Below are positions 14,894-57,986 of a DNA stretch of 64,000 nucleotides, in pieces. The notes under the pieces were generated by a model that worked only from the letters and a program-made list of their open reading frames with translations, was not told the origin of the DNA and did no database searches. Numbering within the stretch: position 1 is the stretch's first letter; every line of letters begins with the position of its first letter. Source of the stretch: Isoetes taiwanensis (taxonomy: Eukaryota > Streptophyta > Lycopodiopsida > Isoetales > Isoetaceae); contig JAJEKV010000376.1 of NCBI GenBank assembly GCA_021234155.1, positions 186,001 through 250,000 on the forward strand, in the 5' to 3' direction. The position numbers and the translations under genes were made by a program.

Positions 14894-14899
14894 ATTGAA

Positions 14900-22211: not shown

Positions 22212-22430
22212 AAACGAGGTGCACCCTGGACTACCACAATCGTCGGATTCGTCGATCCTACGACCCAGATCATATGTTGGGGCCTGTGAGCACCTCTCAT
22301 TTCGATTATAGTCATTTATGATTGGAGGCGCCTATGATTTTGAAATATGAAATACGCTTTCGCCTAAGGTTTTGGGGGAATATCGAACCTCTATACGGCT
22401 TTGCCTAAGATTTTAGAATATGAAATACGG

Positions 22431-22501
22431 GGGCTCGAACCTCTACCAAAATAACTCAATGTCCTAATAAGACTACTTTAACCAATATACCCAATGAGCT
22501 A
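22431..22501 (-). repeat. tRNA-like SINE head in copy 1
   Basis: On the minus strand TAGCTCATTGG (A box, 22501-22491) and GAGGTTCGAGCCC (B box, about 22443-22431) are in Pol III promoter order at SINE-like spacing. The distance and loop contents do not make a full tRNA. Confidence 0.55.
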
Positions 22502-22878
22502 ATATGATTATTTTTTATCTTGAATCTATGTTTTTTTCTTTTTTTATAACCATCCGTTAGATTGTTTTAGGGATATATAGTCTATGGTTTTCGGAGTTGT
22601 TATTTTTTACATCTATACCAAATCCCCCTAGAACCCCCTGTTATTTTGCTACATATTCTAAACGAGGTGCACCCTGGACTACCACAATCGTCGGATTCGT
22701 CGATCCTACGACCCAGATCATATGTTGGGGCCTGTGAGCACCTCTCATTTCGATTATAGTCATTTATGATTGGAGGCGCCTATGATTTTGAAATATGAAA
22801 TACGCTTTCGCCTAAGGTTTTGGGGGAATATCGAACCTCTATACGGCTTTGCCTAAGATTTTAGAATATGAAATACGG

Positions 22879-22949
22879 GGGCTCGAACCTCTACCAAAAT
22901 AACTCAATGTCCTAATAAGACTACTTTAACCAATATACCCAATGAGCTA
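22879..22949 (-). repeat. tRNA-like SINE head in copy 2
   Basis: Same A box and B box as in the first copy, shifted by exactly 448 bp. Confidence 0.55.
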
Positions 22950-23411
22950 ATATGATTATTTTTTATCTTGAATCTATGTTTTTTTCTTTTTTTATAACCA
23001 TCCGTTAGATTGTTTTAGGGATATATAGTCTATGGTTTTCGGAGTTGTTATTTTTTACATCTATACCAAATCCCCCTAGAACCCCCTGTTATTTTGCTAC
23101 ATATTTGGATCCCAAATTCAACTATGCAGTCTAGCATGTCCCTCCATTTCATACACTTCTGAATATTGATAAACAATTATAAATAAATGGGATACTAACC
23201 TTGTCATTACCAATGAAAGATCTTTGCTGCCATAATAGAATGATCAAAGATATGACATTGAGTAATGTTAGAAAGCATATGCCCAACGTACATCTACGTT
23301 GTTTTAAGGCATAATCAATTTGCAGAAAAGAAGCTCTAATCTAAAACAAATTACAAAAGTTGCTTCACGGTCGCCCCATCATTTTGAACTTCATTTCCTG
23401 TTTACCTGCAC

Positions 23412-23421
23412 TATAAACAAC
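23412..23421. repeat. left 10-bp target site duplication of the MULE
   Basis: TATAAACAAC directly precedes the GGCTCAGG tip; it equals 44302-44311. Confidence 0.85.
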
Positions 23422-24020
23422 GGCTCAGGATACTTTTACCCTTGATTCGGTGATCCCGGAGATAAATATACCGTCCTCCGGGATCCCGGGGCGTTCGGCG
23501 GTCCGTTAGGGGAGACCCCGTTCGGCGTCACGGCACATACGCCCGTCGGGCCGGTCCATCCATTGTCCAAACCCCGTGCCATCAGCGTCCGTCCTCCAGA
23601 GATCCCCGCCTCGGGATCATCCAGCGATCCCTCCTCGGGATCCTCGCGGCCCGGTGTCGTAATTAGCGGTGGATGTTATCGCCGCGGATGATCCTCGGGA
23701 TCCCGGGCATGAGCTGCGTGGATCCCCTCGCCCGGATCCAGCGCCCGTGGCTGATATCGGCAGACGCTATCCGCCGAGGTGATCCCTCCTCCGGGATCCC
23801 GGCACTCGGACGTGGATCCCCTCCCGATCACCACCAGTGGGCGATAACGGCGGGGACGCTATCCGCCGAGGTGATCCCCCTCCTCCGGATCCGGCACCCC
23901 GGACGTGGATTCCTCCTCCGGGATCACCCCGCCGGATCGATAACGGCAGACGCTATCCGGCCGAGGTGATCCTCCTCTTCGATCCCCGGACGGGTGACGT
24001 GGATCCCGTCCTCCCGATCA
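23422..24020 (+). repeat. left long terminal inverted repeat of the MULE
   Basis: GC-rich and full of GATCCC/GGGATC dyads, it matches the inverted complement of 43600-44301 from the tip to about GTGACGTGGATCCCGTCC near 24012. Compared with the right TIR it has many small deletions, mostly inside the dyads (for example GATCCCTCCTCGGGATCC). The following 24020-24235 is also GC-rich but no longer matches. Confidence 0.85.
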
Positions 24021-24493
24021 CCCACTTGATCTGTTCTCCGTGCCGTGGTCGTTTGTTCGGGCGCTTATCCGTGGATGATCCCCTCCCGAGATCACCCGCC
24101 CGGGTGAGTAAGGGCGGGAGTTATTCTCCGTCGTTAGATGCACTCCGATGTGGTTTGCTGGTAGCCGTTAGATCCGGTGATTTATACCGTCCTCCGGGAT
24201 CCCCGAAGCAGCAGTACCTGTTATTTTAATTAAATTCGAACAGGCCATTAATGATGCGTACATGGCCACTAGCTGTCCACCACATAGCGCCTATGGATAC
24301 CAGAGGACGGGAGAGCACTCCGTCGATGTCGAAGAGTTCAAGTGCGGCTTTGTTGGGCGACGCAAGACTGGTATGCCGGAAGTCGTTTACCTCCGATAAC
24401 GGTTACGGAGGTAAAATCAACCCTTTCACTCTGTTTTATCAAGTTTTTTACTATTTCCTACTATTCTTAACTAAATCTTACTGTGGCTTGCAG

Positions 24494-25897
24494 ATGGACG
24501 AGTCCATAACCCTCGAAGTCAGCCTCAACACCAGTTTTGGCGAGAATGTTTGTCTTGACTCAGGCGCTTCATATGCATTCAAGATTCCGGACTTCCTGTG
24601 CACTGAAGCGGAATCGGAGGCCGAGAAGGAGTCCCCAAAGCCGACAGGGCAAGAAAAATCGGATGTAGGGCAGGAAAAATCGGATGTGTGGAAGAATCCA
24701 GAGGTGGAGGTGATCCTGGGAATTTTTGTGGACGCTCAACTGTTGGGTGATTTGAATGAGGAAGGGGCAGCAAAGGGTCAGGTCATAGACAACGAGCCAG
24801 AACCTGCTCAAGTGTCTTTCGAGTACCAAGAGGCCCCTGATTATAGTTACGATCAGCTGGCAAAGAGATGGAAGTGCTTAATTGAGGACTGCACCAAAAC
24901 TTACTCCAGGAAGGTTGAGCTCGAAAATCATAGGTTCAGAGTGCATGCCTTGTATGATAGGTTTCGGGTTCCTGATGCGCCGAGGGGGAGGATTCCAAAT
25001 CGAATACTTTTGCCCAATGCAGAGCCCGCCAAGGCGAATGCCAATCCGCAGAAGAGGAGTTATGGGAAAATTTCTGTGGCCAAAAGCTTGGATCCAAATT
25101 ATAAATATGCCCACAACCTGACCCGAAAATTGCAGAGGGCCAGGAGAATGGCTGGAGTGGTGGCCGATGAGCAAATTGAAATGGGTCTTCTCGATAAGAG
25201 CCAAAGAGAAGCCTTCATTAATTTACAAGTCCAGAGGAAGAAAGCAAGTGAATTGGAAAGCCAACATGAGGAGATAAAGGCACAGATCAGGAATAGCACC
25301 AAAAATTTAATCTCTGATGATGAGCTTTGGCCTCCTCTAACCAAAGAACAAGAGCAAAGGCAATTGGACGATGATGATGTGAGCGAGGAGGTGGCTGCCG
25401 AGGCTGCAGCAGGAGGTAAGTTTTCGTCCCCAAAGCCTAAACCTGTGTTGCCAAAGGCACGCCCAAAAACTTCTCTGAGGCAGAGTCCAGACGCAAAACC
25501 CCCTAAAACCCCCCCTAAATCCACTGAATTCATGGCCCCTAAACAGATCCTGCTTGAAACTGCTGAAGAAAATATTCCCAAGCCCAGCAAGATTATGCTG
25601 TATCATCTGTATTCTGTTGATCCACATTTTCTAGATTCAGTTTTGGACTACCAAAAAGGTGTTGATGCCGATCGATGGCAGTGTCCCTTCACTTTAAATT
25701 TCCCTGTGGTGGTTGAGAGCCCCTTCATCAAGGTCGGCAGCAAGTCAGCAAATGAGGAGTTCTACATCCAGGAAGCCGAGGCCCTTAAATTTATGACAAT
25801 ATGTAGCATTATAACAGGGGGTTTTTTTTGTGATTTTATACGCTTTTTGGCATGGTTTTCATATGATTTCATGGGCGTATTGCACGAGGCATACTAA
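24494..25897 (+). CDS. C2H2 zinc-finger protein, first coding part of the MULE's plus-strand gene
   Basis: The open frame runs from 24251, but the Met at 24494 directly follows a good acceptor (CTTGCAG), so I take MDESITLEV as the start and the upstream part as 5' UTR with an intron. Residues about 126-151 form one C2H2 finger (C-x4-C-x12-H-x4-H, within WKCLIEDCTKTYSRKVELEN). Residues about 240-300 are charged and helical, coiled-coil-like. A Pro/Lys-rich tail (about 315-365) follows. GQEKSDV is repeated in tandem near residue 55. The last about 35 residues are hydrophobic and probably intron read-through, so the true 3' splice lies near 25800. No known family is recognised. It starts just inside the left TIR and converges on the transposase, like the second gene of MuDR. 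Confidence 0.6.
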   Translation: MDESITLEVSLNTSFGENVCLDSGASYAFKIPDFLCTEAESEAEKESPKPTGQEKSDVGQEKSDVWKNPEVEVILGIFVDAQLLGDLNEEGAAKGQVIDNEPEPAQVSFEYQEAPDYSYDQLAKRWKCLIEDCTKTYSRKVELENHRFRVHALYDRFRVPDAPRGRIPNRILLPNAEPAKANANPQKRSYGKISVAKSLDPNYKYAHNLTRKLQRARRMAGVVADEQIEMGLLDKSQREAFINLQVQRKKASELESQHEEIKAQIRNSTKNLISDDELWPPLTKEQEQRQLDDDDVSEEVAAEAAAGGKFSSPKPKPVLPKARPKTSLRQSPDAKPPKTPPKSTEFMAPKQILLETAEENIPKPSKIMLYHLYSVDPHFLDSVLDYQKGVDADRWQCPFTLNFPVVVESPFIKVGSKSANEEFYIQEAEALKFMTICSIITGGFFCDFIRFLAWFSYDFMGVLHEAY

Positions 25898-26520
25898 TCA
25901 GTACATCTAGAGTGCACCAAGTTTTTGCATGCAATTTGTGCAATTTTTATCTCATCCTCCTCAATGGTTAAGATCAGAGGGCTTACAAAGAAAGCCCTCT
26001 TTTAATTCAAAAAGATCCAAGGGCTTATAATAAAAGCCCTTTTCTCATGAGATTCGGAGACATGACCCGTAATTAGGGCACCGGTTAGGGTTTGTGGCCG
26101 ATTCTAAGCGTGGTGTTGCACCCTCAAAGCTTTAATTCTTCCCTCTGTTCCATCCGGTGGTCCTTCAGAGTTTTTTTGCAAGTGTTTTTGCAGCGATTCG
26201 ATCCAAGGGTAGGTCGGTTCCCCTTTTTATTTTTCCATTCGTGTATTCTGCAGGGGATTTCTTCATGGGTCACACTGGGTAGATTTTTTGAGCGTAGTTT
26301 CTTCTTCGGTCAGCTCCAATTGTTTCGTGGACGAAGCTAATCGATTCGTCATGGAGCTCAAATTGGCGATGTGGGCAAGCCAAATCAAGCAAAACAAATG
26401 GGCACTAAAGAGGATTTGCTAAAAGTAAGACTAAAGATTTGTGATCGTTGAATATTTACGATCATGCGGGATCCGGGTTTTATTTAAGAATCAACCGGTT
26501 CTCATTATGATGGGGATTTG
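25898..26520. other. spacer or intron within the MULE
   Basis: No gene supported. AAGCCCT(C/T)TT repeats (about 25975-26045) frame a short low-complexity stretch. Confidence 0.35.
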
Positions 26521-26862
26521 AGATGCTTAAACCGAACGGCTTGTTTAGACACTTCACCCAAATTCCTAATCTCGGATGCTTTTATTCATGGGCCCAATAC
26601 TTAAATCTTGCTATCCGATCAGAGCCCGGATACTTAAGCATGTGCCCAGATGAGGTTGGACAAACCAAGTCCGTCGAGCACAAATACCGTATTGATCTGA
26701 TGTTGCAGGAGTATGTGGAGCATGAAGCTATTGCCATCATGTGAAAGCTCTTGCTTCTTGTTACCTTTTTGTTGATGCTAAGATTGGGGTAGCACGGCTC
26801 TTTGGACTAAGGGAAATCGCTTACCAGGACCCCTCATTTGTCTTCTCCGGAGGTCTAAGATA
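26521..26862 (+). other. coding-like stretch of unknown product
   Basis: Two adjacent plus-strand frames look protein-like rather than random: one from 26523 (HFTQIPNLGCFYSWAQY, then QTKSVEHKYRIDLML) and one from about 26730 (VKALASCYLFVDAKIG). They may be exons of the zinc-finger/Ulp1 gene or remains of another gene, broken by a frameshift. I do not recognise the family. Confidence 0.35.
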
Positions 26863-28566
26863 AAAAATCTTTCAGGTTGGTCCCTCCCCTTTCTTAATTA
26901 CAAGTGGACTCACAAAATGCATCTTCTTTCGCTGTGGTTCTCAATTTAAGAGATAAATGTGAACTCGCCCTGCGAAGTTGTTCTTTCCGACTCAAGAAGG
27001 CAAAGGCACAAAGATAAGGCAAAGCTCTGTCAATTGTTCTTCCCGACTAAGTAATTACACTGGCTAGAGCGAGGACCAAGCACTGGCCGAGGAGTAAAAT
27101 AAGAGCTTCAAGTTTATTAATTAACATAGTTTAACTTGTTAAATTGTTTTATTCATGGAGCAAGCTTCTTGAATTGTTTTCCATTTTGTAACAACGGTTC
27201 AGGCTCTTAATGTCATTTCAAATGACAAAAGTTGGTGTCCATGCTTGGTTTTTCATTGTATGCGGTTTATCTTGCACAAGGAATATGGGTCAATAGTAAT
27301 GAGTATGGCTTGGCCCTACCACTCTTCTTGTTTCAGTCAAAGACCACAAGATCGTTAGGGAAGAGCAAGCGACCGTAATCAAGTTTCGCACAAAGCACTT
27401 GATCTTGTTTTTGGAAGGTATTGCCTTCCCAACCCTTGTTCCTAGTTGGCTTTTCTCGGTTTTCGTTTGGTTGCACCATGCCCAGCCAGGTTGCAAACTT
27501 CGCAGCGGATTTGTTGGTTTGCGTAATCAAAGGTCCGTGCCCTTAGTTTTTTTAAGGGCGTTGACTAAACTAGAATGACATTAAACTAGAAAGACATCAA
27601 TGTCTCGAGCGACATCGCAAGAGGTATATCCGCAACCTCGTCAAACATGGGATCTCGGGATATGCACAACTTGCCAGAAGGCTACTCTAAAGAAGATCGC
27701 TGTGCTTTGCAGTTCTTTGAGAACATGCAACAGGAGGGCATAATGCTAGACCAGATAACACCCTTAGGGCATAATGCTAGACCAGATAACACCCTTAGGG
27801 CAGGGAGAGAACATCCATGAACTTATTATTGGACGGAAGTTTTAGGTGAACATTGTCCTTCGGAATAAACTTTGATAGGTATTCCAAGTGTGCAAGCTTA
27901 GAGGATGCAGAGAGAGCTTTTGACAAGTTGTTGGATAGAGATATAGTGTTATGGATTCATAGTGTTTCAAAGACACACACATGAGCACTTTATATGCCTT
28001 CACAAATAGCAAATGCTTTTATTAATAGGCCGTTGGTAGTGGAGACAAATTTTTGAACTCCCAAGTAATGGCAAAATGTCGTTGTCATTAGTTTTACTAA
28101 ACCGGGCCGTTCATAATGAGTAGGTTGTTTAACGATTTAGGCCTTTAAAGTTTATCTACGTTTGCTTTTGTTAGGGCCCGAAGGGCCCAAAAAAATTTTT
28201 AATATAGCAATCAACACACAACTACCATTAACATTATTAACACAAACCATTGTATTTAACACATTTAAATTAAAATCCCCCTTAAACCCCCTTTGGTTTG
28301 GGTGCATATTCACACGGGGGGGTACGTAGGGCAGCGAGAGCCCCAAAAAATTTACAATACATGTACAAAATTTTCACCATTGAGTACATTCTCTCAAACC
28401 TTATAGTATTTTGCAAACTTTAATATACAGTATACAAAAACTTGTACATGCATACCCCACAAACGAGGATCGCTATGTACGGGGAAGTGGAGAGCGATGT
28501 GGACTCGGATTGCATTGGTTCTTATCTCCTGTAAGTTTTTAAGTTCTTAAGTTTCTTGAATTTCAG
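26863..28566. other. non-coding or intronic MULE interior
   Basis: No gene is recognised. A 31-bp unit starting AGGGCATAATGCTAGACC is perfectly duplicated in tandem at 27735-27765 and 27766-27796. GGGCCCGAAGGGCCC at about 28172 is a short palindrome. Confidence 0.4.
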
Positions 28567-28800
28567 TTGATCATTGCACTCAATTCGCTGTACAGGGTAA
28601 TTCTACACTCAATTCCTATCCAGAAAAGGTGCCATCATGTCTTCCTGCATCCTGCTGCATTCGGGCTGTTCTTGAGTGGAGGCAAGGCCGGGTTGGCAGG
28701 GGCTTATGAGCAGTTTGCCAAGCTCATCCCTGATAACCCATTTGGTAGGGCACGTTGGAAGATCCAGCAGCACAATTCTATTATATTCCTGTCAATGCTG
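28567..28800 (+). other. probable exon of unknown function
   Basis: Preceded by an acceptor-like TTTCAG and ending at an ATGCTGG|GTAAAC donor, this plus-strand frame reads HPAAFGLFLSGG and FAKLIPDNPFGRARWK, with normal amino-acid composition. It could be an internal exon of the zinc-finger to Ulp1 gene. No family recognised. Confidence 0.4.
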
Positions 28801-29124
28801 GGTAAACGCTTTGGCTTGATTAATCTACTTTGTTAATTTGGGATTATCCAGCCTGGCAGAAAATATTTTTGGAATTTTTTTTAATTGATTTTCTAAGATT
28901 GTTGGTTTTTTCTTGCCGGAAAATTTTACCGTCAATCCAAAAGTGGGAAACAATTTTTTTTTTTTATTTCGTATGCTTTCGAGGAGTGGGTTTAGGGATT
29001 TCGGCATATTCCTAATCCTTGCCCTTGCGTTCCTCATTTCGGCAAACATGGCATGGCATGGAAGCCACCACCTTATTTGTTTTGGATAGGTTCACAGCTG
29101 CGCCAGTGGGAAGAACAATCTGAC

Positions 29125-29363
29125 TGTTGAAATATATTAAGTGTTTCTATTTAAAGTTGTTTCTATTTCTGTTTATCCTTAAGTTATGCATTATATATTG
29201 GAAAATCTTATCAGACGGTTGAGCATATTGTGGCAACATTAGCTCCTTGATTATGAGCTAAACTTGCTGAAGATGATGTATTTAAGGTTGAAGCCTGGAT
29301 CAATGAGATTACCGAGTTCTGATCATATCGTGTTCTTCCTGTGTTACATTGTATGTTTTAACA
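29125..29363 (+). repeat. copia 5' LTR
   Basis: TGTTGAAAT...TTTTAACA, 239 bp. It carries a 14-bp stretch (ATGCATTATATATT) missing from the 3' LTR; since this holds the only TATA-like motif, its absence there is notable. Confidence 0.95.
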
Positions 29364-29377
29364 GGTTATGGGCCCAC
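29364..29377 (+). promoter_or_regulatory. primer binding site for a half initiator-tRNA
   Basis: GGTTATGGGCCCAC directly follows the 5' LTR. Its complement GTGGGCCCATAACC is the anticodon arm of plant initiator tRNA-Met, not the 3' end. Drosophila copia primes from the 5' half of this tRNA in the same way. Confidence 0.75.
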
Positions 29378-29460
29378 GCATGTGATCTGACTGCATTTAC
29401 TTCTTGTCTGGCTCTGTCCTTGTTAAATCCTAAGCAATTTCTGCATTAAATACCTGTACG

Positions 29461-31043
29461 ATGGAGAGTACTGGCACCTTGAATGCATTTGAGTGGAAGT
29501 TTATTCCCCGCTTCACCGGGAAGAACTTCATGCTTTGGAAATGGCGGATCCAGATGATCCTGGAGGATAAGGGACTCTGGGAAGTTGTGAATTCGGGAGG
29601 GGGAGCTACCATTGCTGCGTCTAGTGTTACTGAAAGTGTTGACACTGAGGGAGATGCAACCATTGAAGTTATGTTGAATGAATCGACCTTCGACTTTGCT
29701 GAGAAAGATCGAAAAGCTCGATTAGTCATTTGTTCCAGCTTTTGATGATGCACCCCGCACGGTTGGTCAAAGCGGCCCCGCTAATGCCATTTGGCGAAGT
29801 GTTGATGAATCACTACGCTTCAGATTTAGCGTGAAATCGCCTTGCATCGCGGAAAAGACTCTATAGTCTTCATTTGGCTGAAGGTGGAGATTTTCATGAG
29901 CATGCATGCATCATGAGGGAAATGCTTGATGAATTACAAGCAACTGGAATCGATATCACTGAGGATGAGAAGGTTAGTATGCTGTTGAATAGTTTACCTT
30001 CTACTTTTGAGGGTGTGGTCGTCAATATGGAAGGAAGGCTGTCAGAGCATACCTTTGACAAGGCCTTTGAGCGACTCAAAGCTGAAGTACTTCGGCAAGC
30101 ACAGAACAAATCTCATCTTGTGACAGACACGTTGATGTTCAGTGAGGCTAAAACCAAGAAAGGAGAGAAGACTGGGGGACGAAAATCTAAGTTTGATAAG
30201 TCCCAAGCAACCTGTTTTAGGTGTCAGCAGATCGGGCATCTGGCAAGAGATTGCCGAGCTCCTGCACCCATTCAACCACCTCCAAAGGAACATGTAGCGA
30301 TTGCAGATGAAGAAAAGCATGTTAAAGTGTCTGAAGAAGCGCAAAATTGCATTGCTGAAGAAGATGGAGATGATCTTGGTGAGTTCTTATTCGTTGCTTT
30401 AGAAGATATGGAAGGGAATCCTAGCTCTGTGTGGTATGTGGATTCTGGAGCCACAAGCCATATGACTTCCAAAAGGGATGTTCTTTCACATTACCGGCCG
30501 CTTGCATGCCCAAGAGTGATTCGAATGGGGGACCACCATATCCAAGAAGCTATTGGGATAGGTATTGTTAAGATTCCTTTTGAAAATTCTGTTAACATTT
30601 TTAGGGATGTTCTGCATGTGCCTGGTTTGCAGAAGAACCTCCTGTCAGTAAGCAGGTTAACTGACATAGGCCATGAGATCAAGTTTTCAACTTCCAGTTG
30701 TGAAGTATTAAGCCGAGATGGGCAGATGCTGATTCAAGCTATCAGAAAGGGAAATCTGTATGAGATACTTGGAGTGCCTAAAGTAATTGAGGAGGTATAC
30801 TATGCAAGAGAACCACCTTGCAATATTTGCCTTCAATGCAAAATAACTAGGCGAAGATTTCCAGTCTCCAACTCTCATGCAATTCAAAGGCTTGCTTTGC
30901 TGCACACTGATCTTTGTGGACCAATTAATCCAAAGAACTCCCCGCAGGATCAAGGTATTTTTCGGGTATTTATTTTTCTCGAAAGGTCTTTGTGTACTTA
31001 CTCAAAAAATAAAAGTCGAGTTTTGAGCATTTTCGATATTTAA
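29461..31043 (+). pseudogene. copia gag, protease and integrase start
   Basis: The gag start (29461, with FTGKNFMLWKWRIQMILED) is broken at 29745; gag resumes at 29874 (HEHACIMREMLDELQATG) after about 130 bp of shifted frame. The second frame has a CCHC knuckle (CFRCQQIGHLARDC), the protease box WYVDSGATSHM, and the pre-integrase zinc region through LLHTDLCGPI, the integrase core's first Asp. It ends in a frameshift at about 30950. Confidence 0.9.
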
Positions 31044-32757
31044 GCAGGTTGATTGAAAAGGGACGTGAAATCACATCTTATCTTTAAGATCTGATAATGG
31101 GGGAGAATTATGTTCTAAAACTTTTGATGAGTTTTGCATGATGCATGGGATTGAACATCAGCTTACTGCACCCTATACAAGAGAGCAGAAAGGGTTAACA
31201 GAACTCTTATAGAAATGGCTCGCACATTGTTGCTCAGCATGAAAGTACCTGCTTGCTATTGGGGAGAAGCTATAACAACCGCAGACCTACTTGGTAAATA
31301 GAGCCCCACATGCCAAGCTCTCGATTTCAAAGTCCCTCAAGAAACTGTCCGGTAAATCTCCTACTTTTAATCAATTAAAGGTTTTTGGATGCAAAGCTTT
31401 TGTAAGAATAAATGTTGGAAGTTCCAAATTAGGCAGTCAGGCAAAACCATGCATGTTTATTGGCTATTGCAGTAACAGAAAAGCTTATAGGTTCATTGAT
31501 CTTGACACAAAGAAGTTGGTGATTAGTTGTCATGCTGAGCTCAATGAGTATGAGAATTGTTTCTCTCAAGCCAAGCCACAAGCATCCACTTTTGTCATTC
31601 TTGCAGACTCAGATATGACACAGAAGAACTTGACCACCTCAACATCCCATTTGGAACATGTACATGATGCGGGAAATGATACAATTGATGGAGGAAATAC
31701 TATAAGTAATACTTCTGATGATACTGATGGTACAGAGACAATTGATGGAGGAAATACTGTAAGTAATACTTCTGATGATACTGATGGTACAGAGGATAGT
31801 GAGATTACAGGAGATGCAGATGAACACCTTGATGCAGTAAGACCGGTAAGAATTAGAAGGCCTCCAAGCTGGTTGCAGGACTATGTTTTCATCACCACAG
31901 ATCATGTTATTGAGCCCCAAAGCTATCTTGAAGCTGTCAACAGTCATGAAAAAGACCAATGGATTGCTGCTATGCAACTTGAGCTTGCATCTATCCAAGA
32001 AGCTGGAACATGGTCCTTGGTTGAAAAACCAGTCAATAGGAGCATCATTGGCTCAAAATGGGTATTTAAGATCAAATACAGTAGTGATGGTAATATTGAT
32101 CGATTCAAAGCAAGATTAGTGGCCAGAGGATTTTCACAAGTGTATGGTGTGGATTACAACAGAACTTTTGCACCTGTTGTAAAGTTAACCTCTGTGAGGA
32201 CTATCATGGCTTATGCATGTCAGCAATCTTATTTTATTCATCAAATGGATGTGACTAATGCTTTTTTGCATGGGGAACTTGAAGAAGAACTCTATTTGGA
32301 GCAGCCAGAAGGATTCATGCAGGGATCAAACTTGGTCTGCAGGTTACATAAAGCAATATATGGACTTAAGCAAGCATCTCGGACTTGGTACTCCAAGTTA
32401 AATCTTGTACTTCTCCAGCTTGGTTTTCAAGTAAGTGCAAATGATCCTAGTGTATACTTTCGGTTCATCCCATTTCCACTTTTTGTCCTATGTTATGTCG
32501 ATGATTTGATAATCATAGCAGCCCGAGAAGATGAGCTGACATCAATCAAAGATCAGCTTCATAAATAGTTCAGAATGAAAGACTTAGGGATGATTCACCA
32601 TTTTCTTGGAATTCAAATCAACTATGATGGGGAAAAAGGGCGGATGTTTTGCACCGGAGAAGTACTTGACCTGATCATTGTGCTGGTTAGATATGCAAAA
32701 TTGCAATACGGTTGGAACTCCACTGGAGTATGGGGTAAGATTGAGCACAAAAGATGA
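31044..32757 (+). pseudogene. copia integrase end and reverse transcriptase
   Basis: 31080-31290 holds the integrase block with SDNGGE in broken frames. From 31291 a 425-aa frame carries the integrase C-terminus, an acidic spacer with a perfect 19-residue tandem repeat (57 bp at 31681-31737 and 31738-31794), then RT: GSKWVFKIKYSSDG, FAPVVKLTSVRTI, QMDVTNAFLHG and the catalytic box CYVDDLIIIA. A TAG at 32566-32568 interrupts before FRMKDLGMIHHFLG. Confidence 0.92.
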
Positions 32758-32923
32758 TCCATGTTCTTCTAATCTTTCCTATATTTACAAACAGTACAGA
32801 AACATTTTGGGGACCTTAAACTTTGCCCGCATGGCTACCGACTGACTGTCTTTAGCATTATCCAAACTCAGTCAGTTTGCAAATGATCCCAAGCATAGCC
32901 ACTGTTGTTCCTTAAAGAGATGT

Positions 32924-33457
32924 TTGAGGTACATTACAGGAACTTCAAACTTTGGGATCGCTTTTAAAGCTGGAGGTCACAGAGAAATAGTTGAATATAC
33001 AGACTCGGATTGGGCAGGGGATGAGGACAGAAAATCCACCTCTAGATATGCTTTTACCTTTGCAGGAGGAATCATAAGTTGGAGCAGCTCAAAACAGAAA
33101 TGTATTGCATTGTCAACCACTGAAGCCGAGTTTTATGCAATTGCACATGGTCGCAATGAGGCAGTTTGGTTACAAAGGCTAGCAATTGAATTGCACATCC
33201 ACAAGGACACAGGTATGACCTTAATGGTGGACAATCAGGGAGCTATGAAGGTCTCATATGATCCTGCAGAGCACAAGAGGATGAAGCACATTGACATAAA
33301 ATTCCATTACATCAGGGACATCTTAGGGACGGACACTCTAAAATTACTTTATTGTCCTACAGGAGAAATGATTGCTGACGCCATGACAAAGGCCTTGGGA
33401 AGCATCAAGTTTCAGAAGTTTCTTGAGATGGCAGGGATTAAAAAGGCAAACACTTAA
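32924..33457 (+). pseudogene. copia RNase H domain
   Basis: A clean 177-aa frame to the true TAA stop: YTDSDWAGDEDRKSTSRY has the first Asp, ALSTTEAEFYA the Glu and VDNQGAMKV the next Asp. It ends 7 bp before the 3' LTR in a purine-rich tract (AAGTGGGGG, 33456-33464). 32758-32923 between RT and this frame is degraded. Confidence 0.92.
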
Positions 33458-33464
33458 GTGGGGG

Positions 33465-33689
33465 TGTTGAAATATATTAAGTGTTTCTATTTAAAGTTGT
33501 TTCTATTTCTGTTTATCCTTAAGTTGGAAAATCTGATCAGACGGTTGAGCATATTGTGGCAACATTAGCTCCTTGATTATGAGCTAAACTTGCTGAAGAT
33601 GATGTATTTAAGGTTGAAGCCTGGATCAATGAGATTACCGAGTTCTGATCATATCGTGTTCTTCCTGTGTTACATTGTATGTTTTAACA
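33465..33689 (+). repeat. copia 3' LTR
   Basis: 225 bp, TGTTGAAAT...TTTTAACA, preceded by the polypurine tract and followed by the target duplication CTGAC. Confidence 0.95.
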
Positions 33690-36600
33690 CTGACTGCAGA
33701 AGATCCAGGTTCGGTTGAGTATTTAGCCGATTTTGCGGAGCCCCAATAGCATGCAACTCTGATTTGGGTCCGTGTGGGCTTCGATTTGGTTTGGCACGGA
33801 TGCCAGAGCTCATTTGTTTCATGCTCACATCATACCTTTCGATTATTCTTTTTCTTCTGTTGACATGTCTTCATTAGATATATTTTTTTCGGATTCAGAG
33901 AGCCCAGCAAACAGAGGCATAAGAGATGTCCTTCTGTTCTTCTATTTAGGTAAATTGATTGTCCTAGCCTATGCCCATGTGGCACTTTGAATCATATCAT
34001 CTGCATTCTTCAAGATCATTCTCTTAAATGGACAGAAGCACCAGTTTATACCATGAGATATTGCTTTCTGCATGCTGCAAGATTTCCTTCGTTTCTTTGT
34101 TTCTATGTCTTACTATAGAAGGACGAGAGTTTCTTTACTTTTAAATGAACGACTTATTCTGATTTTTGCTCTCATGCAGGACTGCTGGATCAACGTTTCA
34201 CAAGGCCATCACAAGATATCCATGCTAGCTCAGTTGTTATCGATTTCATAATTTTTCACAACTTGAATCATATTATCTGCATTTGCCAAGGTCATTCTTA
34301 AATAGGCAGAAGCACCAGTTTATAACATGAGACCTTGCATTCTGCATGCTGAGAGAATGCATGAAAATTTAAGACCATCAGCTTAGGCAGAGATTTAGTT
34401 CTTCGTTGCAAAGCATGGTCTAGATATTATCTTTGTTGTGGCTTAGGATAAGGATTCTGTGCCTGGTCTTTATACTGAGAATGCTATTATTGATGTCAAT
34501 GTTGAGCATGGTGATATTGGTGGATGTTGCATCAGAGCATAGATGCAGACAAATTCATATTCTTAGATCTTCTGTGCATGCAGCATTTTTCTTTTGTATT
34601 TGCTCCATCTTGATCTCTTTCTCAATGATGGAACGTCTAGCTATCAACACCATCTCATATTGCTCCGTAATGGCTTTGGCATACTGAAAATCTGCTCTCT
34701 TTCTGGTAAGGGCACTCCATTTCTTTGTTTGTTTCTTGGGATCTTCAGGAAAATGTATTTGGTTGTCATTAATTTGGAATAGCATTCATCTGTTGTTCTC
34801 ATCGCATTTGCGACTGAAAGCTTTTGATTAGCTTCTGATCAAGGTTTGAATAGTCTGCAGTCCTACTATTTATCACATACGAGAAGCAATCATCATAACC
34901 TCCACAATCTTCCAGGTACAAGTTAATTTAGATTTTGAAAGATAGGATGTGTATTTTGAATCATCTTGCATTTTGTAGTTTCATTCACTAGAACCTTACA
35001 ACGTTCAGAGCGGACTATGAGTGTTTTCAGAGCAGACCACAGGTTTTCTATGGCAGAGCAATGTCATGGCTTCTAATGTTAGCAGGTAAAAATTGCATTT
35101 CAAAAGCTTCTCGCGCCTGTTAGTTTCTAATTTATACCATCATTTTTGTGCAAATGCTTCTAATCTACCATCATTTCTATGCAAATGCTTCTCTGTTTTG
35201 TTGAAATCCTTGCTGCAAATTCTAACTCTGTTTGCAGCTTCTTTTACAGGCCTAATTTCTTTTCAATGACTTAAAGAAGCTCCATCTTGATCTTTTCTTA
35301 ATGGTGGAATATCTAGCTATCAATAACATCTCATAATGCTTTTTGACATACTGAAAATTGGCCCTCTTTTCTGGTAAGGGCACTCCATCTCTTTGTTTAT
35401 TTCTTGGAATCTTTAGGAAAACGTATTTGGTTGTCATTAATTTGGAATAACATTCATATGTTGTTCTCATGGCATCGCTCATTGAAAGCTTTTGGTTAGC
35501 TTCGATCGGGGTTTTTGAACAACCGCAACTCGCTATTGCATCACATATGAAAAGCGATCATTATAACCTCCACGTTTTCCAGGTACAAGTTACTTAAGAT
35601 TTCAGAAGATAGGATGTGTATTTTGAATCATCCTTTTGTAGTATAATGTATATTCTAAATCATCGTTTCATTCACTAGAATCTTACAACATTTTAATTCA
35701 CATGCTACTATATTTGGAAGATTTGTTTATAATTACTATTGGCCCTTTGGTTGTTTTGCATTTTCATTCTTAACAATCACCTCACCTGGGCTTACAGTAT
35801 GTATTGCATTGTCATCCGTAACTACTTTCTGAAGCATTCCTTTTCAATAGTATTTCTTAAAGAAAGCCATTCCAAACATGTCTTTGAGATTGCAACCAAG
35901 TTTTTGAACATTGAGACTCATCGTCTGTTGTATAACAAGCAGTTTTTGCAGAGGTCGAATTTGTTCTTTTTACTCCAATTTGTGTTTGTTTGCCTGAAAC
36001 AGCTTACAATTCAAATTTGCATACTTCTCTTGGACATTCTAAATGTGACCTTTTCTTTCCTCCGATTCTACCATTTTTGGTTGTCAACATATTTGACAAT
36101 GCTTGAAATTTACATAGTGGGGCTTTTGATTGGCTGGATTCGTCTTCTAGAAAGTTCTTAGGACATGGTGCTTTGGACAACTTGCTTTGGTTGGTCGTTA
36201 TTCATTGCATGTATTTCTAGCAAGGCCTCAAGACCATTGTCACGGATGCTACCTACTTCCATTTTTGTTTTGTTTTTGGCTTCTATAATATATAGGTACA
36301 AAGGCTTTCATTTCGCAATGGTATAACTGTTTTGGTGTTGCAGCATAGCTCCATTGCCAATTTTAGAGCACTAGCAGTTGGTAGATCAGGAGAGAACATA
36401 TTAGGTAAAGTTTGCTGCCCACCTCATTGTGTTGTTTTTGTTCTTTCCTGCCTTTATTTCCAATCTAGAAGCAAGTTTCTGTTGTGTGATAGAGATCTTC
36501 TCAAATTCTAGAAGTAGTTGCATGTTGACTTTGAAAAATGACCAATACTAACTGTGATTATTGTTCTCACTGGGACAAGGTTATTTTCCTTTGCAGTGTT

Positions 36601-38927
36601 CACAGCTAGATCAGATTACTATTGCACCCGATGACCGATGTTCAAAAGCACAACTTTTAGTTGAGGCCAAAAGCAGATCAGACAACTGTTGAGGTGTTAC
36701 AATGTAGAGCAGCATATTTTACACACGCTAGGTTTGCTTCTGCCATAGTTGTTACATTTTATCATTTGATGCTACAATGTGATGAATTTACATCTACAAC
36801 TTTGCTCTTATATGTTCTGTTTTTTTCCAGTGTATTCTTGCAGATTCATTCATATGTTGGAAAACTTTCTACTTTCAACCAAACTTTCCACTTATAGAAA
36901 CCTTTTGTAGATCTTACATTTACCACAAACTTATGGCCTTTTGTACATCCTACACATTAATAGGCCATGTTGCTAAGATTCATAACGGCCATGGATTAAC
37001 TACGTTTACAGCACAATAAAAAACAAGGAATTAAAGTTCTTCTGCTCAGAGATGCATGGGTTTTGATTTGATGGGCTGGTTGCTTCTATCCATTGGTTTT
37101 ATGTTGCATCATATCATCTTTTAGACACATATTTAGCACACTAAAACTAAAAAGATATTGCCACTATTAACAAAGAGCCACGATTATTAATTAATGTTAC
37201 ATAAAAAATATCACTCATATGATGATTATTAATAGTAATGTATATGATGATTATTAATAGTAATATAATTTAGGCAGGGAGGGAGTTGATCACACAAGAA
37301 GTTTGTGCTGTGCGAATGTAACTTACAACCTTGACATTACAACCTTGAAAATTTGTCCTGCAAAATGATGGGTTCATATGATGGCATATAGTAATGTTTG
37401 TTCCCATTAACAAAGGACATGTCCTTAGAACACGTGCCTTTAGAAATCATATATTAATTACAATATTCAAGGTTAACACTTAGAAGTATAAAAGGTTAAT
37501 AGACCATGAGTAAAGCTTTAAAATCACAGTCATTAGTCTCAATCAGAAGCCTCAAGCTTCAAAATCACAGCCCTTAGTTTCAAGATCTCTAGAAATTATT
37601 GCAAGTCTAAGCTTTTGTGCGTGCTTATTCTATAGTTAAGCATGCATTATGGGGCTAATATCCTCAAGCTTCAAAAATGCCTAGAAATTATTACGCTTTT
37701 TCTTATGTTAAGCATCCTGGGGCTAATATCCTCAAAACAAATGATGGCTGATCGATCGACACAAATTGTACTCCATTATTATTATTGTTCGTTCATATAT
37801 GGCAATTACATCCATGCATAAGACAATTAGAGCCTGAGGTGTTGGGATGCATTATTGCTTTAAGAACGAGCATTGATATGCTTACTGCTTTTGTACAAAA
37901 TTGACATTAACAACACATCATCCCTAGCATAACATATTGTTCTTATGGCATTTACCTGTACACAAGTCAATAATGCAATTATGCTAGGCCACACCTTTAG
38001 TTGTAAATAACAAGGTCGTTTGAACCCATTGCAATCAACACACTTCTCGAAACATATTAGCTAACATATGCCTCTTTCGTTATAACATTTTCTAATTCTC
38101 GCATAACCTCTAATCAATACTTCAACATCAAAATCTTTTGAGCGTATCAAACATAAAGCATCGGGTTGAAATGTATAATTAATTTGTGTAGCAATAGCCA
38201 TTAGCTAATACCCTGTTCACGTGGCACATTCTAACTTCATCTCAATACTTTTTTATTTTTAATTTGTCCATCGTCTCTACCATCACTTTCTCATATTCAA
38301 CCAAATGCCATACACCCAACAATGCCCCCAACCAATAGGGTCATTTTATTTTCTTATTGCAAAAATCCACAACTAATAGCGTCACTTTATTTTCTTATTT
38401 CAAAAGACTCTTCAACTCTTATGCAACCTGTTTAGATCAATACAATACATCTAGCATCAACATATATGTATTTAACTATGTCTACAACTTCATCATTGCC
38501 TACAACAGGCCCGTAACTATGCGACCAACTATAATTTGAACATTTACAAAATCACATTGAAAGCTTCGCAACAATGATCTCCTTCATAGGTGCATGCATA
38601 TTATTGTGACATTTGAATTTTATATTTGAAAATATAATGGCCCATTATGATTCATGTTACGTGCCCTTGGAACTACTTTATGGAGTCGTTTTACACTACA
38701 ACAATGACCAATAACAACCTAAAGCATTTTAATATTTCACGATGATTCTACATTCTTGGCCAAAGTTGTATTACTCACAACAATAATACGCACATAAACA
38801 CCAACTTTACATATATGCACGTATATAAAGTGGACATCCATCTTAAAGTTAACATCATTGACAACCCTATATATGTTTTTAGATCCTAGATCTTATTCAT
38901 GTAATTCTACAATAAAATTGCATTTAC
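33690..38927. other. long AT-rich, intron-like MULE interior
   Basis: No gene is recognised over 5.2 kb. It is T-rich with many CAG acceptor-like sites on the plus strand, as expected of a large intron of the plus-strand gene. Divergent duplications occur: 33987-34078 with 34262-34351, and 34602-35002 with 35279-35690. The latter part (about 37000-38955) is more A-rich and may be Helitron body. The 140-aa frame at 35739-36161 looks like chance. Confidence 0.4.
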
Positions 38928-38956
38928 GCCCGGCAACGCCGGGCACCATAACTAGT
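38928..38956 (+). mobile_element. Helitron 3' terminus
   Basis: A perfect hairpin GCCCGGC-AAC-GCCGGGC (38928-38944) is followed by seven bases, then CTAG and T (38952-38956), the classic Helitron 3' end. The body lies to the left on the plus strand. I could not place the 5' TC end, so size is unknown. It lies 46 bp before a Ulp1 exon, in an intron. Confidence 0.7.
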
Positions 38957-39003
38957 TATGTTTTAAATCTATTTTAATTGCCTTTCAATTTGCTATTTCT
39001 TAG

Positions 39004-39331
39004 TGGCCATTGGAGCCTTTTCATCTTAGTAACTGATGGCCTAGCGTGTGCTCGGCTTGGAAAGCCCTGCCCTTACATTTTGCACCTTGATATTCCTCTC
39101 TATCTCGAATTATTTAATCTTTTGCCTTATGATTTAAGCTAATTTGTTATTGATACTCGCAGATTCCTCACAGACGTGTTTAAGAGGTGGAGGCATGAGG
39201 AAAGTGCATTGCATAATGCACCCTGCATTCCATTAGAAACTCCCCAACAGCTCAATAATTCGGACTGTGGTGTGTATGTCATAAATTATGTGAAGAAATT
39301 TGTTAGAGACATCAGTGGCAAGGAGGATAAT
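39004..39331 (+). CDS. Ulp1/SENP-type (C48) cysteine peptidase, two C-terminal exons
   Basis: The first exon (from 39004, after TTAG) reads GHWSLFILV with the catalytic His (39008-39010), and PYILHLD with the catalytic Asp (39089-39091). The second (39163-39331, after CTCGCAG, ending at a GTGAG donor) reads TPQQLNNSDCGVYVINY with the oxyanion Gln and catalytic Cys (39266-39268). Order and spacing fit Ulp1-family proteases, which cut SUMO or related tags from proteins. The donor of the first exon is unclear and the N-terminal part of the domain was not found. Ulp1-like domains are known cargo of plant MULEs (Kaonashi, CUMULE). Probably the end of the plus-strand MULE gene. Confidence 0.78.
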
Positions 39332-39895
39332 GTGAGTCTTTCAGTTTATGTAATTTTGTTGTTTCTTTTTTGTGTGTGCATGTTATCAGTTCATGGCTAA
39401 ATGCATGTTTTAATGCGTGTTCGATTAACCGTGATTGGTTCAAAAAGAAGACATAGATTGCATGAGGTCGGGGCTACAAGATAATGCTCCGAAACTACGA
39501 TTGCTTGGTCTGCGGGGAAGTCCACCTTTCACTTACCCGGGGTGGCACGGGTGATAGTAGACCCGGACCAGCTTGCTAGTTCATGGTCCTTGACATTACG
39601 GTAAAAATCAGCGGAATGTGATAAATCAAAACTTTGAATGTGAATATTTTCTTGAACACTTGAATGTGAATATTTTCTTGAAGACTTTAATGTGAACACT
39701 TGAACACTTGAATGTGATTTTGGCTTTTGAGTTAGTGTAATTGTATTGGTTTATAAAAGTGCAATGGCTCAATGCACCAAAGTTTAATGTTTCAAAGCTT
39801 ATTAAAAGTAATACTTCAATGTTTCCACTATTCCAAGACATACTTCAATGGTTAAGGGCTATGATAAATAATATATCCCGTTTAAATTACTTTGT

Positions 39896-40065
39896 GATCT
39901 CGGAGGACGGGATCAGCAAGCAGGCGAACGCGGGATCCCGGAGGAGGGGATCCCGTTTTAATTAGTGTGTGATCCCGGAGGACGGGATCACCAAGCAGGC
40001 GGACACGAGATCCCGGAGGACGGGATCACCAAGCAGGCGGTCGCGGGATCCCGGAGGAGGGGATC
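39896..40065. repeat. second dyad cluster, 38-bp spacing
   Basis: Five copies of GATCCCGGAGGA(C/G)GGGATC start at 39896, 39934, 39971, 40009 and 40047. The spacers here are different from those in the TIRs (ACCAAGCAGGCGG...CG). The cluster lies about 500 bp beyond the 3' end of the transposase gene, inside the MULE. Confidence 0.9.
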
Positions 40066-40331
40066 CCGTACGTTTTTTTATTACTTTTTTATCCTATGGT
40101 CTAAACTCTAAACATTAAACATTAAACTCTAGGTCCTAACTTATCCTATGCTAGGTAAGTTAGGTTTAATATTTACTTATCTACTTATCCTAGGCTATGC
40201 TAGGTAAGTTAGGTTTAAACATAAGTATTGATAACATTAACAATATTTATCAATAGGATAAGTAATTAGTAAATAGGTAAATATTGATTTATTTATACCT
40301 ATTGTTTATACCCTATTGTTTATAAGAAGGA

Positions 40332-40492
<161 letters not shown>

Positions 40493-40571
40493 TATTTTTA
40501 TGTCATGCCACAAACAATTAACAAGACAATGAAGCAAGACAATTAACAACAACAAACTCACAATGCCATTC

Positions 40572-43433
40572 TCACAATAGGCCCTCCATCTCAACTTGCT
40601 TCCAACTCTTCTTGTTTTCCTTGTCTTTCCTCTTCCCAATTTCTATCAGAGGTTTGAGCCTTGCCAAACTATTTCCACACTCCTCTTCGACTGCATTAGT
40701 GGGGATACATGTTATGGTTCCATTAGAGTTTGTGTAGCCAACATCATCCATTCTTTCAAGCCGCGTGTCGAGTTGTCTCATGAGTGAATCAGTTGCAATT
40801 AGCATGCCTGGATCTTTTTCTGCCCTTGACATCACTCTAGCAATTACTTCTTGTAAGGATCTCCTTGTCTTATCCAGGTTAATCCTTGCCTCCTTTTGAG
40901 AGGGAGACTCGTCCAAGCTTACAATCTCAGCCACATGAAAGGCCCCATGAAATAGATCCTCACATGGCCTTAAGTGGTCCATGCCCCCACCAATTGTCCC
41001 ATATTGGAATCCAAGCACCTGTAAAAGATCTTGATCCCTGTAGTTGCCCAACATTTGCATGACCTTAACTTGGTGCTTACATAAGTTGCCCTTGGCTCCC
41101 CAGGGACAGTCACAACATGCCCAGTTCTTGTGTGCCCCGTTCACAAAGTATGGTCCTTACCCTAGAGTGCGTTCACTTTGCACTTCGCCACCTTCTTCGG
41201 GTTAGTGAATGTGACTGTTCATCGGCAATCTTCCTTGCACCCAAAGATGGCACAACACTATCTCTTCTGGGAGGTGTTCACCACAAACCCCGCTTCCTTC
41301 ATGGACCTAGATGACAAGAGAATTATGTACTTGCAAAATCAAAATAGGCTAAAGAAGATGATTAGAAGTTATACCTGATGTATGCCATGTGTGTCTCCAC
41401 GTAGCAGCCAATCAATCCTCCGTCCTCGGAGTGCTCGTTTTGAAATGCCCAGGCGCCTTTTCAAGGCACAATGCCATGCCTCTATGGTTGCAGTAGTCTC
41501 TTGGTTGGAGTGAGGGTACATCCTCGTAGCCAATACCCATTGGCAAATGTTTTTGGTCCACTCCTTACTCATGTAAGCCGCCAACTTGGGGTATTGAGGA
41601 TACTTCCTCACTAAGTCTTCCAATTTCTTAGTTGCCTCCCTCCTTACTGCCTCCCTATACTCTTCACCGTAGACATTGTCCCCTAGAGGACCTTCTGTCT
41701 TGTACATAATGTAACCAAGTTCCTTGAACAGATCGTTATGTGCCACCTTGTTCTTGATGTTCTTCTGCAACCACTTGATCCAAGCCCTCCTCACGTGCCA
41801 TATGCAAATTTGCACAGGCACACTAGGAAAAACCTATGCAAATAAACAATGTTAGTACATATGGAATGCTTCCAAGGATTAGAGTTTGACAAGTTACTTT
41901 TTTCATGGCCTTTATCTCAGCATGGGCATCATCTGTAATGATGCAAGAAGGTTGCCAATCAGGATCATCTTGGCATAAGGATTCCTTTAGTGCTTGCATC
42001 CACTTTGTTATAGCTCCACTCTTTTGAGAATTGGTAATAACGTAAGCCAATGGTAAACCATTGGAATACTCATCAAAGGCGATAAGTGTGAAAAGATAGA
42101 ACCTGCATTAAACCATACACAATAATCAAATCAACTAAATGTACGAGGAGCACACACAATAAAAGTTGAGGAAGAACCGCACCTCTTGTCGTTTGTTTTG
42201 AAAGTAGAGTCCATGCAAATGGCTTTGTTCTTGCCAAATCTCAACATGGACTCCCTTTGGATTGGAGTCATAACTCCTAATTGAAACAAGTCTCCTTGCT
42301 CATACATGAACACAGAATCTTGGTGTTGTTGAACCCACATGTCAATGCTAGTGGGAAGATCTTCATGTAGCTTCCATGTGTTACGAACAACTCCCTTTTC
42401 AATATTGTACACGTCCCGAATTTTCAACAGATCATCCCTACACATGCTTTCCTGTCCATTCACTTCAAGTCTCAACCTCCACCTCTCTTCATGCATGTTC
42501 ATGACACTACGTGGCGTGTGCCATTGGACAAGCTTCTCTCTTACCCATTCCCTCAATTCTTGTGAGATCCAGGGTGCTAGCTTGAACTTAACTCCAGAGG
42601 ATGGGTCAATGGACCTACCATGGCAGGGCAAACCTTGGATATTGTTGTGATCAAACCCATAATAAGTGATATGTGAAAATTCTGGAAGGAAATAGAGTTG
42701 CCTGATTGTGAAATGGCACTGGAAGCCCCTACGTATGCCCTCTCCCCTCTCAACCCTTTTCCTACGTGTGCCCGGTGGACGTGGTCTATCCTCAACCACA
42801 TGAGTGTTTGCTGTCTTGTCTTCAGGTCCATATGAACACCAATATCTGTATTGTGCATTACAAGTTAGTTTTGATATACTAGGTGTAATTCTAATGACAA
42901 GCACATCAAATGACTTAAAAAAGCAAGAATTATAATCAAACACATAATCTATTGGATGGCCCTATTGGATCTTGGACTCAAACACAAACACATGAATCAA
43001 ACCAATACCTCTTCAACCTCATATAGGAATTCTTGTAGGGTCTTTTTAACACTCTCTCAGGCACTGAACTCCTTAGATAAAAATTTGCAGGTGCTTCACA
43101 ATTCCTCTGCTCCCCAAGAACGAAATCTTGGACTCGGTCTGTATGGATGTAGCAAGTCCAAACAAGCATCTGGCCAACCCCTTGAATATCAGGTACCTGA
43201 TGCTCTTCAGAATACCAATGTAAGTTGCCATGATCAAACAGGCCATTTGGAGGTGATTCGAGCTGTATTTCAGTCCTAAGCTGAAAAAAAAAATACAAAA
43301 TGACAATGCTTGTCTACAGCCTTGAAGATTGCTATGAATGAAAAAGAATACTTACCTCTTCTCTCTTCTCCTCTAATTCGTCCATAGCTGTCGCAGCCAC
43401 AGCCGCATTCCGCTCCTCCTCCATGATCGACAT
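40572..43433 (-). pseudogene. MULE transposase (DDE) with SWIM zinc finger, last exon broken
   Basis: Exons joining in frame by GT-AG sites: 43433-43356, 43280-43009, 42845-42183, 42102-41898, 41833-41375. They start MSIMEEERN and carry the MULE DDE core: AICMDSTFKTND (first Asp), CIITDDAHAEIKAM (second Asp), then ICIWHVRRAW and TTATIEAWHCALKRRL (Glu). The sixth exon starts near 41307 (SMKEAGFVVNTSQK, FGCKEDC, TFTNPKKVAKC) but has TAG, TGA and TAG stops and a frame change before the SWIM finger CDCPWGAKGNLCKH (about 41100). A 150-residue C-terminal region follows to a TGA at 40572. The protein cuts and reinserts MULE DNA at the TIRs. Five clean exons with stops only in the sixth suggest recent loss of function. 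Confidence 0.9.
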
Positions 43434-43599
43434 CAACACGCAATAGGGAAGAACCACACTCAGATGGTGATCCCGGAGGGTGGTCTCAGAACGTCCACGT
43501 GTTTTCATTGTATTGGTTCGTCCGTGCATGGGCTGGCAAATTCAAACTTGGACAACCTGTTTAGTCCACGCCGCTATCTCCACCGTCCAAACGCATCTA

Positions 43600-44301
43600 A
43601 CGGTGGATCCCGGAGGACGGGATTCACGTCACCCAATTGGGGATCCCGGAGGAGGGGATCACCTCGACGGATAGCGTCCGCCGTTATCAGCCACGGGCGG
43701 GTGATCCCGGAGGAGGGGATCCACGTCCGGGGTGCCGGGGATCCCGGAGGAGGGGATCACCTCGGCGGATAGCGTCCGCGTTATCAGCCACGGGCGGGTG
43801 ATCCCGGAGGAGGGGATCCACATCCGGGGTGCCGGGGATCCCGGAGGAGGGGATCACTTCGGCGGATAGCGTTCGCCGTTATCAGCCACGGGCGGGTGAT
43901 TCCGGAGGAGGGGATCCACGTCCGAGGTGCCGGGGATCCCGGAGGAGGGGATCACCTCGGCGGATAGCGTCTGCCGATATCAGCCGCGGGCGCGGGATCC
44001 CGGAGGAGGGGATCCACGTGCTCATGCCCGGGGATCCCGGAGAGCGGGATCATCACGGCGGATAACGTCCGCCGTTAACAGCCATCGACTGTGGGAATCC
44101 CGGAGGCGGGGATCTCTGAGGCACGGACGGCCGCGATGGCACAGGGGTTTGGACGGTGGGGATGGACCGGGCCGATGTGGCGTGTGCCGTACGTCAGAAC
44201 GGGGTCTCCCCAACGGACCCCGTCGAGAGCGCCCCGGGATCCCGGAGGACGGTATATTTATCTCCGGGATCACCGAATCAAGGGTAAAAGTATCCTGAGC
44301 C
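43600..44301 (-). repeat. right long terminal inverted repeat of the MULE
   Basis: About 700 bp ending in CCTGAGCC at 44301. The outer 190 bp (44110-44301) are unique sequence shared with the left TIR; the inner part is the dyad array. It ends about 170 bp upstream of the transposase start, so it probably also holds that gene's promoter. Confidence 0.85.
43606..44114. repeat. array of 19-bp dyads at alternating 37/61-bp spacing
   Basis: Eleven copies of GATCCCGGAGGAGGGGATC (GATCCC/GGGATC arms around a 7-nt centre) start at 43606, 43642, 43703, 43740, 43800, 43837, 43898, 43935, 43996, 44033 and 44096. Steps alternate 36-37 and 60-63 bp, a higher-order unit of 98 bp. The short spacer is like ACGTCCGGGGTGCCGG. 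The long one holds a second dyad, GGCGGATAGCGTCCGCC. Spacers recur, so this is not a CRISPR array. Confidence 0.93.
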
Positions 44302-44311
44302 TATAAACAAC
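44302..44311. repeat. right 10-bp target site duplication of the MULE
   Basis: TATAAACAAC directly follows the CCTGAGCC tip; it equals 23412-23421 in direct orientation. Confidence 0.85.
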
Positions 44312-49837: not shown

Positions 49838-49929
49838 GTCCTCGGCCAGATATTTGGCACGTAAGGCCGAGGCCCACTAGGGCCGAAGGCCGGGTCGAGG
49901 CCTTACGTGCCAAATATCTGGCCGAGGAC
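49838..49929. repeat. 92-nt hairpin with perfect 31-bp arms
   Basis: GTCCTCGGCCAGATATTTGG... (49838-49868) is exactly inverted at 49899-49929 around a 30-nt GC-rich centre. Together with the dyad at 49710 it looks like the middle of a foldback element. Confidence 0.9.
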
Positions 49930-57925: not shown

Positions 57926-57986
57926 ATTTACTTTTCGAACCCTAGAAAGAGCATCAGCAACAGGATTCTTTTTCCCGAGAAGATGT

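Follow-up and report, generated by a model that had tools for sequence, protein, structure and literature searches.

Two inverted sequence tips lie 20.9 kb apart in a 64-kb stretch of Isoetes taiwanensis DNA (the window), and they enclose regions resembling a transposase, a Ulp1 protease and a zinc-finger protein as well as a copia element. The locus raises the question of whether this entire interval entered as one Mutator-like element (MULE), or whether the tips belong to different elements or surround sequences that never moved with them.

Probable insertion unit and target-site duplication

The 20-base tip GGCTCAGGATACTTTTACCC starts at 23422, and a reverse-complement copy ends at 44301, with one occurrence each in the 64-kb window. 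In a scan of viral contigs the 20-base tip gave 0 matches, an uninformative result. The outer tips (23422–23493 and 44230–44301) match at 72 of 72 positions in inverted orientation. Both are abutted flush by the direct repeat TATAAACAAC, of which just two copies were found on both strands of the window (23412–23421 and 44302–44311, plus strand); the chance identity of a random pair of 10-mers from the window is ~4.6e-6. Outside the duplication the 300-bp flanks share nothing above chance (best match 11 bp, E = 1.6). No third tip was detected in the 64-kb window, the outer 24 bp matching at 23422 and 44278 only and the next-best site having seven mismatches. Inverted pairs of 25-mers separated by more than 1 kb number 65, and the six that were examined (the first three and the last three) all connect the two regions of the terminal inverted repeats (TIRs). 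A target duplication of ~7–12 bp is characteristic of MULEs (PMC9168764), and the one found here is 10 bp, identical at 10/10 positions and flush with the tips. Long TIRs, which are typical of MULEs and not universal among them, are also present (~602 bp, with the outer 72 bp identical).

Because the tips are perfect, the flush duplication is unique in the window, the flanks are unrelated and no third tip occurs in the window, one MULE insertion is the most likely reading, with a probability of roughly 0.9: a single large plant-type TIR-MULE that entered in one piece and duplicated 10 bp of its target. The element measures 20,880 bp, or 16,310 bp after subtraction of the copia element and one 5-bp duplication. 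The original prediction had described the tip at 23422 as inverted at 44301 with the outer 72 bp matching, and a 10-bp direct duplication flush at both tips; both descriptions were confirmed. Its proposal of one MULE with long TIRs, a transposase, a Ulp1 exon, a zinc-finger frame and a nested copia element is supported. Two contrary cases that it had named, ends drawn from two separate complete elements and a flank match lying inside a wider repeat, were not upheld, given the absence of a third tip within 64 kb and the unrelated 300-bp flanks.

Transposase

The right-hand gene lies on the minus strand. Two proposed first exons, read by eye (43433–43356 and 43280–43009), would start ~300 bp or less from the 3′ TIR. 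The catalytic exons (42845–42183, 42102–41898 and 41833–41375) have GT–AG borders and give a 442-residue open piece when joined. This piece matches the Pfam MULE family PF10551 (1e-18) and the ZSWIM1-3 RNaseH-like family (1.1e-9); on the unspliced frame PF10551 scored 4.4e-4, which is under the cut-off. The catalytic residues D212, D278/279 and E407 are kept, so that the D/D/E set of a MULE-type DDE transposase accompanies the PF10551 match on the joined exons. With the joined piece as query, 13 related proteins were retrieved among 2,939 candidates (E ≤ 0.001, 27–37% identity); a single-exon query found no relative among 75 candidates. Source names are attached to 11 of the 13 (five from Cryptomeria, five from flowering plants and one with the prefix PITA_, which we take to denote pine), and two are unnamed. 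In an alignment of six relatives, the first D is missing from both P0001 and P0002, and P0001 also lacks the E.

The stretch 41157–41305 has no open frame on the minus strand (three, three and two stops in the three frames) and adjoins an open SWIM exon at 40575–41156 (minus strand; PF04434, E = 1.9e-4). An in-frame stop lies directly upstream of the SWIM exon, and three of the 13 relatives align across it. Since 41157–41305 is closed in all three frames and these relatives run through the stop, the transposase of the present copy looks broken, barring an unrecognized splice form around this stretch. With such a splice form the transposase would be functional and the element autonomous now, a reading that concerns its activity and not the unity of the insertion. 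The open catalytic exons with their GT–AG borders would suit an autonomous element, as would the lack of any difference in the 82 bp of tips and duplication, but the missing open frame and the three relatives that align across the stop make it quite improbable. A Pack-MULE carries captured host gene fragments and no transposase gene; the present element does not belong in that class, as it has a transposase region, though a broken one. Just past the 3′ end of the transposase, inside the element, is an (ATAG) microsatellite (40333–40492, 40 copies, 97% match).

Zinc-finger frame and Ulp1 exons

The facing left-hand region, on the plus strand, opens with a 555-residue frame (24230–25897, stop to stop) that begins ~300 bp or less from the 5′ TIR; its first in-frame ATG is at ~24293 and another is at 24494. 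It holds one C2H2-like finger at ~24872–24946 (zf-C2H2, E = 0.022, under the Pfam cut-off). Further exon-like stretches were read by eye between this frame and the Ulp1 exon. Among them, an open stretch at 28596–28801 (plus strand, QKRCHHVFLHPAAFGLFL...), lying between a possible acceptor and a possible donor that were also placed by eye, may continue the left-hand gene; it has no Pfam match.

The Ulp1 exon (39143–39397, plus strand) contains NNSDCGVYV, with the catalytic Cys codon at ~39266, and matches PF02902 above the cut-off (E = 1.5e-5). By sequence it also matches Sentrin-specific protease 7 (SENP7; 3eay_A) with E = 0.0015. Immediately before it, a Ulp1-like piece on the same strand (38978–39139, with a stop at 39140) contains GHW (His at ~39008) and HLD (Asp at ~39089), which we take to be the Ulp1 His and Asp motifs. 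This piece alone gave no Pfam match, and fusing it with 39143–39397 gave no better match. The zinc-finger frame may form one gene with the Ulp1 exons. A query joining them found no relative among the 7,996 candidates scored, which were those with most words in common, the words being taken from the first 500 residues.

Terminal inverted repeats and motif arrays

The 5′ TIR (23422–24023, plus strand) is ~602 bp long and contains ~2.9 tandem units of 94 bp. The 3′ TIR (minus strand) spans 43606–44301, with the TIR proper at 43699–44301; its tandem array comprises 4.8 copies of 98 bp at 43639–44114, and motif copies extend inward to 43606. Inside the outer 72 bp, the ~602-bp alignment of the two TIRs has 453 identities, 29 mismatches and 97 gap columns. 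This strong divergence of the inner TIRs counts against movement as a unit; in its favour, both gene regions begin ~300 bp or less from a TIR and converge. Points that likewise weigh against the single-insertion reading are the sub-threshold zinc-finger match, the lack of a relative for the joined zinc-finger/Ulp1 query among the 7,996 candidates scored, the stop that terminates the Ulp1 His piece and the scarcity of recognized content at 25.9–38.9 kb outside the copia element.

The motif GATCCCGGAGGA has 17 exact copies in the window and all 17 lie within the element, compared with an average of 0.01 expected from shuffles; this confinement speaks for a single unit. Four are on the left side (to 24190), four in an array in mid-element (39875–40065, plus strand), which sits between the two convergent gene regions, and nine on the right; the four left copies are on the minus strand and the remaining 13 on the plus strand. 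With up to one mismatch allowed there are 21 copies, all in the span of the element, one of which lies in the copia element (29556). BLAST with the tip also located an inner copy of TIR positions 46–66 at 24183–24203 (plus strand, 21/21 identical), upstream of the first ATG of the zinc-finger frame; it overlaps the last (24190) of the four left-side copies of GATCCCGGAGGA.

The recurrence of the TIR motif in the mid-element array and the copying of TIR positions 46–66 at 24183 would also fit two MULEs of one family, lying side by side or one inside the other. In that case the tips would come from different elements, the transposase and the Ulp1/zinc-finger part would have moved separately, the array at 39875–40065 would be a relic end and a partner tip may lie outside the 64-kb window. 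Neither inner site has a tip, however (outer 24 bp at 23422 and 44278 only, next best seven mismatches), and with a chance identity of two 10-mers of ~5e-6 an origin from two elements is very unlikely.

Under a single insertion, the repeated end motif suggests that the element may possess a self-regulation system. One specific form, which we consider doubtful, would have the left-hand C2H2 zinc-finger/Ulp1 protein recognize and bind GATCCCGGAGGA in the mid-element array as well as in the TIRs, and lift the silencing of its own family via a SUMO-type protease. This would be a VANC/KIU-like build with a different DNA-binding domain, in a long-TIR MULE. Should the element's zinc-finger/Ulp1 protein target these arrays, anti-silencing would occur in long-TIR MULEs with a DNA target that can be read from the sequence, and there would be a handle on the recurrence of Ulp1 domains in plant transposons. 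Among the open-access literature matches listed, the titles and abstract starts revealed no MULE that combines a C2H2/Ulp1 gene with motif arrays of this kind, which is no proof of absence in print.

Nested and internal sequences

A copia LTR retrotransposon occupies 29125–33689 (plus strand), with LTR ends TGTTGA...TTAACA and CTGAC duplications at 29120–29124 and 33690–33694. Its LTRs differ by one mismatch and one 14-bp indel, and the copia element is therefore young. It could have entered the interior of the MULE before or after the last move of the latter, and may have been carried along; if it entered before that move, the moved unit was 20.9 kb.

A candidate Helitron 3′ terminus was located at 38928–38955 (plus strand), consisting of a GC hairpin (stem 7, loop 3) followed by ACCATAACTAG|T, an arrangement that we assume to mark a Helitron 3′ end. 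In a scan for such ends seven sites were returned, of which 38955 alone has an all-GC stem. Candidates for the 5′ end by pattern (34267, 36610 and 37446) were none of them convincing. A Helitron may also be nested in the MULE, in which case the MULE itself would be at most 16,310 bp long. The 5-kb intron-like region of the original prediction contains this Helitron-like 3′ end (38955), and it may still be an intron.

Outside the copia element, the region 25.9–38.9 kb is mostly without recognized content. It includes an internal duplication (34602–34979 and 35279–35642, 81% identical). Minus-strand frames in the two copies (34647–34838 and 35255–35557) encode peptides that resemble each other (AMRTT.ECYSKLMTTKY.FLKIPRNKQR.GVPLPE), and a gene fragment may have been captured here; these frames have no Pfam match. 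Whole-frame Pfam scans covered six of six frames of 33690–43500 and four of six of 23422–29400, and searches for RNA families and tRNAs gave 0 matches.

The presence of at least one insertion (copia) and of a candidate Helitron end inside the element accords with a short non-autonomous MULE into which unrelated insertions came later, with the transposase and the Ulp1 region as passengers that had never moved together with the tips, but this is highly improbable given that both gene regions begin ~300 bp or less from a TIR, that the TIR motif recurs between them and that the transposase belongs to the MULE family.

Proposed history and age

In the single-insertion reading, the whole unit would have inserted together and thereby generated the 10-bp target duplication. 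Its geometry would be MuDR-like, with two gene regions running inward from the TIRs, the transposase from the right and the zinc-finger/Ulp1 region from the left. A transposase would bind the conserved 72-bp tips, excise the entire unit and rejoin it, and the TIRs would act as promoters. Because the transposase looks broken, either an intact relative supplied the activity for the last move in trans or the copy died after landing. The two copies do not differ anywhere in the 82 bp of tip and duplication, an outcome with a probability of 0.007 if each lineage had acquired 0.03 substitutions per site and of 0.19 if it had acquired 0.01. Strong decay after landing does not fit 0/82 differences, and we therefore lean, and only lean, towards a transposase already defective when the element last moved.

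Comparison with known elements

Among grapevine TIR-MULEs, Mutavine-1 is 17.7 kb with a TIR of 70 bp, and Mutavine-18, at 16.2 kb, has TIRs of 230–263 bp and is marked as including a ULP-1 region (PMC2528002, Table 4). The same paper describes ULP in both orientations and in both TIR- and non-TIR-MULEs. As compared by description, the present element resembles these two in size and in having TIRs, and resembles Mutavine-18 in its Ulp1 content; it differs from both in its ~600-bp TIRs with tandem arrays and in its C2H2-like frame. No duplication is given there for Mutavine-1 or Mutavine-18; other grapevine MULEs have 9 bp, whereas the duplication here is 10 bp. A barley MULE of 8.2 kb has been termed much larger than others of 1.5–4.9 kb (PMC9168764), and, according to a review, the Pack-MULEs of Jiang et al. 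(2004) were all 7 kb or shorter (PMC6431247). The original prediction of an element far larger than usual MULEs thus holds against typical ones, but not against the published TIR-MULEs of 16.2 and 17.7 kb (PMC2528002). With Mutavine-1, Mutavine-18 and the ULP MULEs in print (PMC2528002), both the size and the Ulp1 content have precedents. The element is ordinary in kind; its size and motif arrays are unusual. It provides a clean case of a very large TIR-MULE that has kept its two ends and the target duplication, and joins two grapevine families above 15 kb (PMC2528002).

Arabidopsis VANC21 binds YAGTATTAY, and the VANC targets are tandem repeats in non-coding parts of VANDAL elements (PMC5735166, PMC10398659); some VANC genes carry Ulp1 (PMC13317346). 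The present element shares with the Arabidopsis KAONASHI (KI) MULEs and with VANC-bearing VANDALs a Ulp1 region opposite the transposase (PF02902 on the plus strand, transposase on the minus strand; PMC2528002, PMC13317346), and a short motif tandemly repeated in non-coding parts of the element (PMC5735166, PMC10398659). KI MULEs and VANDALs are described as non-TIR or, for VANDALs, with degenerate TIRs (PMC10398659), whereas the tips here are perfect over 72 bp; the feature is not strict, since members of the VANDAL group with TIRs of 46–174 bp are also described (PMC6446971). VANC (DUF1985) had no match at E ≤ 0.05 in the three plus frames scanned, where exons may be too short. As the tips are perfect and no DUF1985 match was found in the plus frames scanned, the element is filed as a MULE; a VANC-like action is hypothetical.

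The layout is also like that of maize MuDR, with two convergent genes near the TIRs, long TIRs and a short target duplication; the present element is about three times larger than MuDR. The MuDR genes mudrA and mudrB are named in PMC6446971. MULEs with tandem TIRs likewise have repeated TIR motifs at both ends, but they are mostly non-autonomous with duplicated TIRs (PMC3310237), whereas here there are ~95-bp repeats and one mid-element array.

Other features of the window

At 22212–23105 a 446-bp stretch is perfectly duplicated in tandem (period 448, 100% identical); the duplication ends ~300 bp to the left of the insertion and either arose very recently or is an artefact of the assembly. A (TAATTC) array is found at 10011–10139 (21.5 copies, 100% match). 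Ty3/gypsy gag-pol-like frames were recognized by eye on the minus strand at 938–4202 and 56870–59502, and a direct repeat of 163 bp (56887–57049 and 60379–60541) is 99.4% identical. Two MITE-like imperfect palindromes are present, at 14792–14897 (~106 bp, 85% identical to its own reverse complement) and 49838–49929 (~92 bp, 83%).
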